Below, piece by piece: positions 16,120 to 22,041 of a stretch of DNA of 22,159 nucleotides (position 1 is its first letter; each line of letters begins with the position of its first letter). The stretch comes from a virus. The notes beneath the pieces were generated by a model. It made no database searches, was not told the origin of the DNA, and saw nothing but the letters and a program-made list of their open reading frames with translations. The stretch lies in the IMG/VR virus record IMGVR_UViG_3300009164_000391, positions 1 to 22,159 of that record. One strand, given 5' to 3'. The position numbers were made by a program, and so were the translations under genes.

Positions 16120-16385
16120 CCGTGTACCTCTATTCGTATGTTTGCATCACGTACAAGAGCCAGTGTGTCTGACGCTTGTATCTTCTTAATCCTGTCGCTT
16201 ACCGCACTAGCTGTCACCTGCACGGCAAGGACTTCTCCTTTTCGTATGGCAAGGATGTCGCACCACCCCCAGAGGTCTTTCCTTTGTTTTGTAAAGGAGT
16301 TCCACTTCTCTACTATTTCGCAGTGGTAACCCTGCTCACGTAGATACGCTAGTGACCGCTGTGTGGGGGAGGTCTTAGTTGCCAT
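16062..16385 (-). CDS. PD-(D/E)XK / Holliday-resolvase-like protein
   Basis: A 107-residue protein coupled to the gene before it by TGATG. Its core RKDLWGWCDILAIRKGEVLA, followed by VQVTASAVSDRIKKI, has the shape of the archaeal-Hjr/VRR-NUC nuclease fold: Glu23 or Glu26 on the first helix/strand, Asp43 at the G-x-x-D position, and then a strand (VQVTA) where the usual E-x-K would be Q56-x-T58. The Asp is kept but the Glu and Lys are not, so either this is a subfamily with a migrated Lys (Lys67/68 follow) or it binds DNA without cutting. It lies in the recombination operon, so a role in resolving branched phage DNA is reasonable. Confidence 0.6.
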   Translation of the reverse strand: MATKTSPTQRSLAYLREQGYHCEIVEKWNSFTKQRKDLWGWCDILAIRKGEVLAVQVTASAVSDRIKKIQASDTLALVRDANIRIEVHGWRKSAKTNRYVLRIEDIS

Positions 16386-16702
16386 CAGAAGGGCACGTCG
16401 TCGTCAAAGCCATCACCACCAAATTTCTTATGTTTGACGGTGTTGTAAGACGGTGGCACTTCTTTGTCTCCACGCTCTTCCATCTTCTTTTTCTTGCTCC
16501 AGTTGTCCTCAGACAGAGAGAGCAAGTTGTAGCCTCGGCTGGTAGGTTTCTGCCAAGCAGCGAGTTTGAGTTTCTCGCCAGCTTTGTAGTCCATCTCTAG
16601 GACGATGAAGCCTTTAAAGTCAGGTGCTTTATCACCTTTCCTCTGTTCTTCTTCTTCCCAGTACATGACCCCTTTGCCGGGTTTCTCGTTATGTACGTTC
16701 AT
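16385..16702 (-). CDS. SSB-like protein with DDDVPF C-terminal tip
   Basis: A 105-residue protein from ATG 16702 with SD AAAGGAA (6 nt). The longer in-frame start at 16741 is rejected because it lacks an SD. Residues 8-68 look like a small beta domain (KPGKGVMYWEEEE, KAPDFKGFIVLEMDYKAGEK, LKLAAWQKPTSRGYNLLSLS). Residues 69-95 are a Lys-rich linker. The protein ends GFDDDVPF, nearly the DDDIPF tip with which bacterial SSB recruits recombination and replication partners. Next to an exonuclease and a RecT-like protein, a single-strand-binding or SSB-tip-mimic role is likely. It is shorter than E. coli SSB, and the OB fold is inferred. Confidence 0.6.
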   Translation of the reverse strand: MNVHNEKPGKGVMYWEEEEQRKGDKAPDFKGFIVLEMDYKAGEKLKLAAWQKPTSRGYNLLSLSEDNWSKKKKMEERGDKEVPPSYNTVKHKKFGGDGFDDDVPF

Positions 16703-16934
16703 ATTTTTCCTTTCTGTATGTGTACTGTGCAAATTCGGCACTGCCTTGTTTGACCATCGTGGTGTGGATGGGGTGTCCTTGTTTTCTAAGAACTTCTATG
16801 TGAGCTGCAAGTCTGAAACTTCCATAATGTTGCAGGGCATCTTTAGGAGTAAGTGGCCCTATTTCAGTAAGGTGTTTCAGAATATTGGCTCGCTGACTGC
16901 CGCTGCGGGTGATGGTGGGGGTTCCGACTTTGGG
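16689..16934 (-). CDS. Winged-helix (HTH_39-like) ORF with no ATG/GTG/TTG start
   Basis: An open frame that ends at TAA 16691-16689 and is bounded upstream by an in-frame TAA at 16970-16968. It encodes GTPTITRSGSQRANILKHLT, then EIGPLTPKDALQHYGSFRLA and AHIEVLRKQGHPIHTTMVKQ. The pattern ILxxLxxxGPLTPxDALxxYGxFRLAAxIxxLRxxGHxIxT is a clear phage winged-helix DNA-binding domain. No normal start codon lies before it. It could begin at ATT, ATC or CTG, or be a C-terminal extension of the RecT-like protein made by -1 frameshifting at CCCAAAG; the coordinates given start there. The SSB-like gene's SD lies in its last codons, so its translation would couple to that gene. The domain is very likely; the expression route is inferred. 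Confidence 0.65.
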   Translation of the reverse strand, partial: PKVGTPTITRSGSQRANILKHLTEIGPLTPKDALQHYGSFRLAAHIEVLRKQGHPIHTTMVKQGSAEFAQYTYRKEKYERT

Positions 16935-19451: not shown

Positions 19452-19711
19452 GTGTTGACATAGCCTTGGGTATCGTCATCTTCCTCTACCCTTTTTGTGG
19501 GCGAGGGTGTGGGCAAAGTGTCTAACTGCATATTCTTTTCTAGTTCAGTTATGCGTTTAGCCATGTCTCTTACTATGTTTGTCAGGAGGTCTATTTCATC
19601 TAGTCTCTGGCGTTTGCGCCAGAGTGAGTCTTTTACTATCTCTTGTTTAACCTTGGACTGTCGTTCTAGGTCGTTAAACGCTTCATTCTCTTCTGGGGTC
19701 ATCAAGTCCAT
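19448..19711 (-). CDS. Small coiled-coil protein
   Basis: An 87-residue protein with a strong SD (AGGAG, 6 nt before ATG 19711). It is largely helical: PEENEAFNDLERQSKVKQEI, then RLDEIDLLTNIVRDMAKRIT continuing as a heptad coiled coil to about residue 60. A Thr/Pro linker and an acidic end (EEDDDTQGYVNT) follow. No enzyme motif. It overlaps both neighbours. The layout suits a small dimeric adaptor or regulator; no family recognised. Confidence 0.6.
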   Translation of the reverse strand: MDLMTPEENEAFNDLERQSKVKQEIVKDSLWRKRQRLDEIDLLTNIVRDMAKRITELEKNMQLDTLPTPSPTKRVEEDDDTQGYVNT

Positions 19712-19880
19712 TTATATCTCCTGTAAAGATAAGTGCTATCGTGATTAAGTAGACGGGAACATTCTTACCATCTTTCACTTGGTCTAGTAACTTACGTGCC
19801 TCGTCTGGGGTCATACCTACCTCTGTGGTGAGACGGGAACCCGTATCCGAATTCCCTAACTCTTTTTTTAATTTAGACAT
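19683..19880 (-). CDS. Small hypothetical protein (start uncertain)
   Basis: A 65-residue protein if it begins at ATG 19880. Alternative starts are ATG 19943 (86 aa) and ATG 19814 (43 aa, best SD: AGAGG at 5 nt). The conserved-looking part is MTPDEARKLLDQVKDGKNVP, then VYLITIALIFTGDI, a helix followed by a hydrophobic helix ending in TGD. I recall similar short phage proteins of unknown role. The longest version would place three DnaA-like boxes inside the coding region, so a later start is preferred. Its 3' end overlaps the next gene by 29 nt. Confidence 0.5.
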   Translation of the reverse strand: MSKLKKELGNSDTGSRLTTEVGMTPDEARKLLDQVKDGKNVPVYLITIALIFTGDINGLDDPRRE

Positions 19881-19904
19881 ACGCAGGTCACCCACAGACC
19901 TACC

Positions 19905-19935
19905 TGTGGATAACTTATGCACAATGTTATCAACA
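19905..19935. promoter_or_regulatory. Cluster of three DnaA-box-like sites
   Basis: TGTGGATAA (19905-19913) is the reverse complement of the E. coli consensus TTATCCACA. TTATGCACA (19915-19923) fits TTATNCACA. TTATCAACA (19927-19935) has one mismatch. Their spacings are 1 and 3 bp. A T/A-rich stretch (19861-19880) lies beside them and could be an unwinding element. Together they suggest host DnaA binds here, as an origin or as a regulator of the leftward genes. Confidence 0.6.
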
Positions 19936-20121
19936 ACCTGCATAACTGACTCTCGTTTATCTAGGCTAGGTAAAAGGGGTCAGACCTCCTTGATTACCTC
20001 CGACTTTGCTCTCACCCGAAAGATGCTCACTTAGGGATGACAATGGTCAGTTCGCCACGTTTATCTCACTTGGTCATCAGAACCGCATGAAGGGGTGGGT
20101 GATGCCCCCGACTAAGCCTAA

Positions 20122-20217
20122 ACGCACAATAAAAAAGCCACTTAAGTGACTACCCCTATCACGCCCCCGTAGAGACGGGGAGGGGTAATCGCTTAAATGG
20201 CCTTGCTTACTGTGCGT
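20122..20217. repeat. Long imperfect inverted repeat (~96 bp)
   Basis: The left arm runs from ACGCACA (20122) through GCCACTTAAGTGACTACCCCT (ending 20157). The right arm runs from AGGGGTAATCGCTTAAATGGC (starting 20181) to TGTGCGT (ending 20217). In the inner 21 bp of each arm 18 positions pair; one of the others is G-T. CCCCGT/ACGGGG (20165-20170, 20175-20180) around AGAG forms the tip, with a 7-nt bulge (20158-20164) on the left side only. Confidence 0.75.
20128..20151 (-). terminator. Rho-independent terminator of the right-hand operon
   Basis: On the minus strand, AGTCAC-TTAA-GTGGCT forms a 6-bp stem (one G-T pair) with a 4-nt loop, followed by TTTTTTATT. It lies about 110 nt after the last gene of the leftward ArdC unit. 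On the plus strand no T-run follows. It is nested in the left arm of the long inverted repeat. Confidence 0.6.
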
Positions 20218-20259
20218 GACTACAGTGGGACGAACTCTAGCAAAACCACTTGGGGTTTG

Positions 20260-20445
20260 TCAACCCCCTACAAATTCCCCAAGGGTTAGCAGGGCTATCA
20301 AAAACCCTGCACCCATACCACTGACGAACAGACTAGCCATATCCGCAGCGCACATGCGTGGGGGAATTTCACTATTGTCAAACACGTGGTGGGGTTCACG
20401 GGATGGGTTTGTCATGCGTTGTTCTACTTTTCCGCCTTGTGCCAT
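20260..20445 (-). CDS. Small protein with C-terminal membrane helix
   Basis: A 61-residue protein from ATG 20445 with SD GGAG (8 nt), two bases after the preceding stop. The hydrophilic N-terminal half (MAQGGKVEQRMTNPSREPHH) is followed by one membrane segment (SLFVSGMGAGFLIALLTLGE). It is the last gene of the ArdC unit. The tail-anchored layout suggests envelope function such as superinfection exclusion, but no family is recognised. A weak hairpin (20236-20258) follows the stop. Confidence 0.55.
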   Translation of the reverse strand: MAQGGKVEQRMTNPSREPHHVFDNSEIPPRMCAADMASLFVSGMGAGFLIALLTLGEFVGG

Positions 20446-20987: not shown

Positions 20988-21854
20988 TTATGCCGCTTTC
21001 GCCTCTGCTGTTGCGTCAAGCATGTTTATATAGTCTGCCGCTTTTTGTGCATACGCCGCCGCTTTAAATACTGCCTTGCTATCGTCACGCAATGCTTTTA
21101 ACCAGCTTTGTATATATCCGGCGTGCCTTAACTCGCCTTGGATACCGTAATCCTGACAGAGGAACGCCGCACCCATTTCTGCAACAAGTTCCTCGAAAGC
21201 ATACGCCGGATTACCAAATCTGCCCTTATCGAGGTTACGGTCTAATCTATCTTTGTGGCCTGTCCAATGCGTTAATTCGTGAAATGCTGTTGCATAGTAG
21301 TTTTCCTCACTGTTAAACGCCGATTTATGCGGCATTTGGATTCTGTCCTGAGAGGGCATGTAAAAAGCGGCATCACTACCGTGAGACAGTGCCGCACCTG
21401 TTTTAATAATGCGTTCCTCTGCTAACTGGTTAGCTGTAAACGGTTTATCTGCTGGTTTTTCAACGGTTATCGTGATGCCCTCTACCTGAGAGGCATTAAA
21501 AACAACATAAGACTTTAAAACAGCATACGATTCTGTTTCACCTGTTTGTTTGTTTTCTTTACTGACAGGCGAATAAAAGACAATCTTTGTGCCCTTTTCG
21601 CCTTTTCGCACGTTAGCCCCTAAGGACTGCCATTGTTTGAATGATGCCCACACTGGCACGTCAAACCCTCTCACCATGCCTGTCATACCTAAGATTAAAC
21701 GGTTAATGCCTTGATAGGGCTTTTGTGTCAGGATGTTTTTATCCGCACTGCTGTCTGCTGTCCATGGCTTTATCCAAGGAACAGCACCCTTTTCTAGCTG
21801 TTCAATAATGCTGTTTGTAACGTCATCATATAAAGATTGTTTAGAGTCTGTCAT
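20988..21854 (-). CDS. ardC: ArdC-like antirestriction protein
   Basis: A 288-residue protein from ATG 21854 (SD AAAGG, 10 nt); the longer in-frame start at 21911 would include a hydrophobic leader lying in the promoter and is rejected. Residues 5-135 match the ArdC N-terminal ssDNA-binding domain (DVTNSIIEQLEKGAVPWIKP, then KPYQGINRLIL, then VWASFKQWQSLGANVRKGEK). Residues 140-285 are the zincin domain with FHELTHW (His192, Glu193, His196) and a downstream EELVAEMGAAF giving the third ligand. Plasmid ArdC protects incoming DNA from restriction; phage copies are presumed to do so at infection. All key residues are intact. Confidence 0.85.
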   Translation of the reverse strand: MTDSKQSLYDDVTNSIIEQLEKGAVPWIKPWTADSSADKNILTQKPYQGINRLILGMTGMVRGFDVPVWASFKQWQSLGANVRKGEKGTKIVFYSPVSKENKQTGETESYAVLKSYVVFNASQVEGITITVEKPADKPFTANQLAEERIIKTGAALSHGSDAAFYMPSQDRIQMPHKSAFNSEENYYATAFHELTHWTGHKDRLDRNLDKGRFGNPAYAFEELVAEMGAAFLCQDYGIQGELRHAGYIQSWLKALRDDSKAVFKAAAYAQKAADYINMLDATAEAKAA

Positions 21855-21891
21855 TTGGCACTGCCTTTCAAAGTAATGAATGAATGAGAGA

Positions 21892-21900
21892 ATTATAACA
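21892..21900 (-). promoter_or_regulatory. Extended -10 promoter for ardC
   Basis: On the minus strand TG-T-TATAAT (21900-21892) is a perfect extended -10 element. No good -35 lies 17 bp upstream, which extended -10 promoters do not need. Transcription would start near 21885, 31 nt before the ardC ATG. Confidence 0.55.
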
Positions 21901-22041
21901 CTAATAATCAACTAATATTCTAACCCTCTCATATATATAGCATAATAGAATCGTGCCAGATGCTGTAACTCGTTGATTTATATATGGTAGGAATAACCCT
22001 AAGTACAATAAAGCATTACATATTCTAATGTTAACGCTAAA

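Follow-up and report, generated by a model that had tools for sequence, protein, structure and literature searches.

The window analysed here is IMG/VR virus record IMGVR_UViG_3300009164_000391, a linear fragment of 22,159 bp from a freshwater phage. Its gene-free stretch, from 19817 to approximately 20260 (the true start of the downstream gene was set by homologue alignment), carries a promoter, a conserved structured RNA and a cluster of DnaA boxes. We lean towards reading this site as a transcription-dependent, RNA-assisted and host-DnaA-dependent replication origin in the phage family to which the window belongs. The same RNA occurs in another phage lineage beside iteron-like repeats.

DnaA boxes and the adjoining A+T-rich DNA

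Regarding the DnaA boxes, an earlier note on this DNA had described two exact boxes and one near-match clustered in 31 bp next to a T/A run. All of them are present at those sites (Table 1), with a 96-bp inverted repeat nearby. Single TTATNCACA sites are unremarkable, because 3 are found in the window versus 1.2 expected; the triple cluster was obtained in 0 of 400 Markov-shuffled windows. The possibility that the boxes are merely codons of the mechanical open reading frame (ORF) 19683-19943 was rejected. Homologues of this ORF (~35 loci) align solely from the Met at 19816, and the boxes are therefore intergenic.

Relatives were gathered via the YqaJ/RecE-like exonuclease and then by DNA patterns. 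They are divided into group 1, the exonuclease/RecT family of the window, and group 2, which has a Sak-type recombinase and other terminases. For the box frequency, 34 loci gathered via the exonuclease gene or protein, independently of the boxes, were used; the first DNA-pattern scan required a box-like string, and its matches were therefore excluded. At least one DnaA-type box lies just 3′ of the conserved 13-mer of the RNA in all 34 of these element-bearing group-1 loci, followed by an A+T-rich stretch, and an exact box occurs in 0.06% of shuffled 80-mers. The loss of the boxes in close relatives, which the earlier note had named as a point that would count against an origin, is thus not seen in these loci. 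Two sequence features expected of a DnaA-dependent origin are found, namely a box cluster, by the cluster test and by its retention in relatives, and an A+T-rich element beside it. The 60 nt behind the boxes have a mean A+T content of ~0.66 in the relatives, compared with ~0.52 for the sequence around them; in the window itself these 60 nt reach only 0.57.

The boxes overlap two hairpins, P6 and P7, which follow the RNA core, and box TTATCCACA sits within the stem CCACAGgtaggtCTGTGG of this region. Among relatives, some phages carry the box in P6 and others in P7; the box sequence is therefore retained in its own right, independently of the RNA fold. A DnaA box within a hairpin can load DnaB (PMC6127211). 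In the window, as in many relatives, a box forms part of a hairpin stem, which is similar to the A site of the ABC primosome, as a structural resemblance only. As a separate observation, a palindromic pair, TGTGCATAA-N7-TTATSCACA, is found elsewhere in relatives (L036:1407-1431, L062:462-486 and L077:1172-1196) and is possibly an operator or a second DnaA site.

Replication genes were sought in ten near-complete exonuclease-family contigs of 28-36 kb, nine of which have the element and one of which (G009) does not. No match to a DnaB_C/DnaB-type helicase, Pol A or the O-like phrog_678 was obtained in these contigs, and Pfam scans of their early proteins revealed recombination and nuclease families, with no initiator, helicase or polymerase. 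Considering that the boxes are kept, that an A+T-rich stretch follows them and that the near-complete relatives have no recognisable replication genes, an origin that borrows host DnaA is a reasonable interpretation. The recruitment of host DnaA proposed in the earlier note is strengthened to this extent, while the role of host DnaA itself remains putative.

A conserved structured RNA in front of the boxes

The repeats and the hairpin of the earlier note are parts of one minus-strand structured RNA, which comprises a promoter, a terminator-like hairpin with an internal complement and a core of ~165 nt. Of the non-coding DNA near the exonuclease, the intergenic segment 19862-20145 is conserved best; the structured RNA is the most conserved part and is also present in phages without any DnaA box. 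An alignment of the core from 28 relatives, with a nested structure of 31 pairs, contains 868 cells, 96.1% of which are paired, and both partners have changed in 23 of the 31 pairs. Covariation was 0.726 versus 0.221 after shuffling (0 of 500 shuffles was as good) and 0.05-0.17 when the partner was slid. The three-way junction is closed by a 3-bp helix, covarying in every sequence, between 20054-20056 and the GCC before the 13-mer. The core pairs include 121 G-U versus 9 A-C cells, which identifies the minus strand as the functional one, with the promoter (20263-20234) upstream. No Rfam 15 family scored above its gathering cut-off for this RNA, and genomes carrying the element have one copy each.

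The two copies of CGTTTATCT in the window (19954-19962 and 20058-20066) were rejected as iterons, since both are conserved joiner strings (AGATAAACG) of the structured RNA; the consensus of the first joiner across relatives is AGATAAACG[TA]G. The iteron-like repeats of the earlier note, which also included CTCACTT, are thus explained as parts of a strand-specific RNA, as indicated by the covariation and the ratio of G-U to A-C cells. The 96-bp inverted repeat described there is real and belongs to the minus-strand RNA: the RNA of the minus strand folds with -65.4 kcal/mol (z -10.4), far better than that of the plus strand (-49.2 kcal/mol, z -7.5).

The promoter is conserved as well: 31 of 41 group-1 relatives have TTGAC[AG] at the corresponding position (5% by chance). 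Within the leading hairpin, element A is complementary to element B in 33/33 scored relatives, with a score of 19.5 for own pairs versus 15.0 for swapped ones, and A is usually complementary also to element C behind the U-run (19.7 versus 14.1). The sequences of A, B and C diverge strongly between phages and their complementarity is retained, which may represent a switch governing read-through.

Table 1. Positions of the features in and beside the candidate origin of the window
Feature	Position	Strand	Remarks
Promoter, sigma70-like, TTGACA-18-TAGAGT	20234-20263	-	TG before second hexamer; predicted RNA start ~20227
Terminator-like RNA hairpin	20122-20225	-	96-bp inverted repeat ~20124-20219; U-run 20130-20136; ends in GGCUUUUUU
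Element A	20214-20220	-	Complements B inside hairpin (20158-20164)
Element C, behind U-run	20123-20129	-	Complements A region 20210-20216
Core RNA	19948-20113	-	P1, P2, then three-way junction with arms P3-P4 and P5; score of model R1 135 bits, E 1.5e-35
First conserved joiner AGATAAACG (CGTTTATCT of the earlier note)	20058-20066	-	Columns near-invariant in 28-38 relatives
3′ joiner AGATAAACGAGAG (13-mer)	19950-19962	-	Columns invariant in 38 sequences; search key for relatives
Hairpins P6 and P7, after core	19890-19947	-	-26.3 kcal/mol for window sequence; fold kept across relatives while sequence varies
DnaA box TTATCCACA	19905-19913	-	Exact match
DnaA box TTATGCACA	19915-19923	+	Exact match
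Weak DnaA box TTATCAACA	19927-19935	+	One mismatch
T/A-rich stretch, candidate unwinding element	19850-19882	.	T/A run ~19860-19876
First gene 3′ of element	19683-19816	-	True start ATG at 19816, MTPDEARKLLDQVK...; homologues (~35 loci) align from Met 19816

The core was found in ~120 viral contigs from unrelated phages. Among named phage records, it is present only in the uncultured MW202825 (Manatee Spring), and thus in no cultured phage. A plasmid search for the element gave no match, and neither did a host/prophage search of 84,980 genomes with two DNA patterns. An RNA polymerase alpha C-terminal-like domain is present in a protein of one box-less, element-bearing phage (A5 member set).

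In group 2, the RNA is joined to a different downstream module. The terminator-like leading hairpin is absent, and 43 of 48 loci have a promoter, TTTACA-N16-18-TATAGT, immediately in front of P1. No DnaA boxes follow the element in this group, and the boxes were therefore rejected as a part of the element in all phages. The DNA 3′ of the RNA is A+T-rich and typically gene-free over ~500 nt (up to 870). It contains tandem repeats with a spacing of 22-25 bp that match the palindrome AGTnAGyrCTnACT, with 95 matches versus 6 expected, a partly circular count because the consensus was derived from three of the counted loci and the phages are related. In group 1 the palindrome is not above expectation (2 matches versus 2.3). 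Most group-2 genomes encode DUF1376/O-like initiators or primosomal proteins, and one (G018) encodes a primase-helicase. The lambda-type combination of tandem iterons and an own O-like initiator is thus found in group 2 only, not in the window's family. Group 2 also has a conserved C-tract, CCCCTCCCCCCC, which comes after the RNA and before the iteron-like repeats (L154:2580-2600; L200 near 8490).

A proposed RNA-assisted origin and its alternatives

The mechanism that we infer from sequence would be as follows; this applies to the function as an origin, to DnaA binding, to the switch and to the RNA as a primer or opener alike. RNA polymerase would start at ~20227 and transcribe leftward, and the first ~100 nt would fold into the terminator-like hairpin, where the complementarity among A, B and C could turn read-through on or off. 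Transcripts passing the hairpin would form the core RNA, with P1, P2 and the three-way junction, and continue through the boxes into the A+T-rich DNA, where the transcript, as an R-loop, as a primer or through transcriptional activation, may help to open the duplex. In the window's family, host DnaA would bind the box hairpins and load the host helicase, substituting for a phage initiator; in the second family, the same RNA would act beside palindromic iterons and an O-like initiator. An origin region is suggested as the simplest common thread, given that the same RNA is linked to boxes and A+T-rich DNA in one lineage and to iteron-like repeats and an O-like initiator in another.

A broader proposal, which we put forward tentatively and with less confidence than the origin itself, is a new class of "origin RNA", in which a conserved RNA would open or prime the origins of unrelated phages with interchangeable initiator modules (host DnaA boxes, or an O-like protein with iterons). 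Transcripts that aid the start of replication are known for ColE1, c2, lambda and T4; to our knowledge, none has a deeply conserved, elaborate fold across lineages with different initiators. If true, phage origins could be recognised in metagenomes by the signature of this RNA, DNA copying in phages that have no replication genes would be accounted for, and module swaps would allow the part played by RNA structure in opening an origin to be tested.

Several known systems are comparable. The ori of lactococcal c2-type phages (Ceduovirus) gives rise to the non-coding PE1 transcript, which is thought to open or prime the origin, and no phage proteins are needed for plasmid replication from ori fragments (PMC7150918). 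The between-promoter sequence of the c2 type is wholly different among ori types, whereas here one RNA architecture is found in unrelated phages, followed by boxes or iterons. Transcripts also open or prime the ColE1 origin (RNA II) and activate lambda (PMC5043065). The RNA described here resembles RNA II in having a promoter, a structured, putative pre-primer with alternative pairings and no recognised initiator of its own (PMC5043065 and general knowledge), and differs from it in sequence and fold, with no antisense RNA seen. With regard to an RNA-primed origin, the promoter is conserved and the RNA is strand-specific, so that a non-coding transcript may run through the origin; an own initiator was not recognised in group 1, and O-like proteins are encoded in group 2. 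Group 2 is similar to the lambda origin (oriLambda) in its tandem palindromic repeats, A+T-rich stretch, O-like initiator and predicted transcription into the region; however, its repeats, which lie in a gene-free region instead of within the O gene, come after a conserved structured RNA. Bacterial oriC and plasmid DnaA-box origins likewise have clustered TTATNCACA boxes beside A+T-rich DNA, whereas only 1-3 boxes are present here, with a structured RNA adjoining.

Some observations weigh against an origin of this kind. An initiator may possibly have escaped recognition, because most phage proteins have no known function. The GC-skew analysis proposed in the earlier note was run, and GC skew and GC3 skew track gene direction and therefore cannot place the origin. 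Of 49 exact boxes, only 29 are located for the most part within predicted stems. The exonuclease relatives MW202753 and G009 (L134/L135) lack the RNA element, and the element-bearing MW202825, G019 and G020 have neither boxes nor a clearly recognised initiator, one protein of a mixed set matching a "replication protein" PHROG; the pattern in which boxes replace an initiator is therefore imperfect. The partial circularity of the group-2 repeat count belongs here as well.

The chief alternative, which we consider rather unlikely, is that the RNA serves the early operon as a cis-acting leader of the kind known from HK022 put and Bacillus EAR, modifying RNA polymerase for terminator read-through, the boxes and iterons being separate regulatory sites or a coincidental downstream origin. 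These elements are also structured leader RNAs near a promoter; the RNA here is larger, matches no Rfam family and has boxes or iterons behind it. The core lies ~10-120 nt from the promoter, before the early genes, in the groups examined, and is common to phages with differing replication genes, both of which would suit a leader. Downstream terminator-like sites are more numerous than in shuffled DNA (39 versus 7; 51 loci); however, they are no commoner in sense than in antisense orientation (39 versus 38), and downstream intrinsic terminators were therefore rejected as proof of antitermination. The strongest terminator-like hairpin of group 1 precedes the core, beyond the reach of an antiterminator, and the ArdC gene and small same-strand genes of the window lie upstream of the RNA. 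A leader would also leave unexplained the boxes, or the iterons with a gene-free A+T-rich stretch, directly after the RNA.

The boxes could instead be a regulatory site, as the earlier note had allowed, through which host DnaA would repress the early promoter region or set its timing, with the origin elsewhere. Box pairs are known in bacteria as sites of transcriptional repression by DnaA, and the boxes lie ~290 nt downstream of the promoter, before the exonuclease and RecT genes. This distance from the predicted promoter is too large for simple repression, A+T-rich DNA follows the boxes and no other candidate origin was seen within the window, a 22-kb fragment, so that we judge this explanation improbable. 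Still less probable, in our view, is a stand-alone non-coding RNA under its own promoter with another job, such as host takeover, counter-defence or packaging. Its own promoter, the terminator-like hairpin, the single copy per genome and the deeply conserved unpaired strings are consistent with such an RNA, but no consistent terminator was recognised behind the core, and this reading would not account for the constant association with boxes or iterons.

Neighbouring genes

The window member (19683-19816, minus strand) of the small protein family M(T/S)(K/R)xEAxxLLDxVKxG...ALxxTGD, which has many members among relatives, gave no match in Pfam and PHROG comparisons. In group 1 the family is encoded directly after the candidate origin, in group 2 at other places. 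A protein encoded beside RecT (16385-16741, minus strand) is without PHROG or Pfam match; its cluster, c13, is conserved at the same position in the compared genomes, and judging by this position it is perhaps a single-strand binding protein. An ArdC-type antirestriction protein with ArdcN and zincin domains is encoded at 20988-21911 (minus strand), in the early region upstream of the element.
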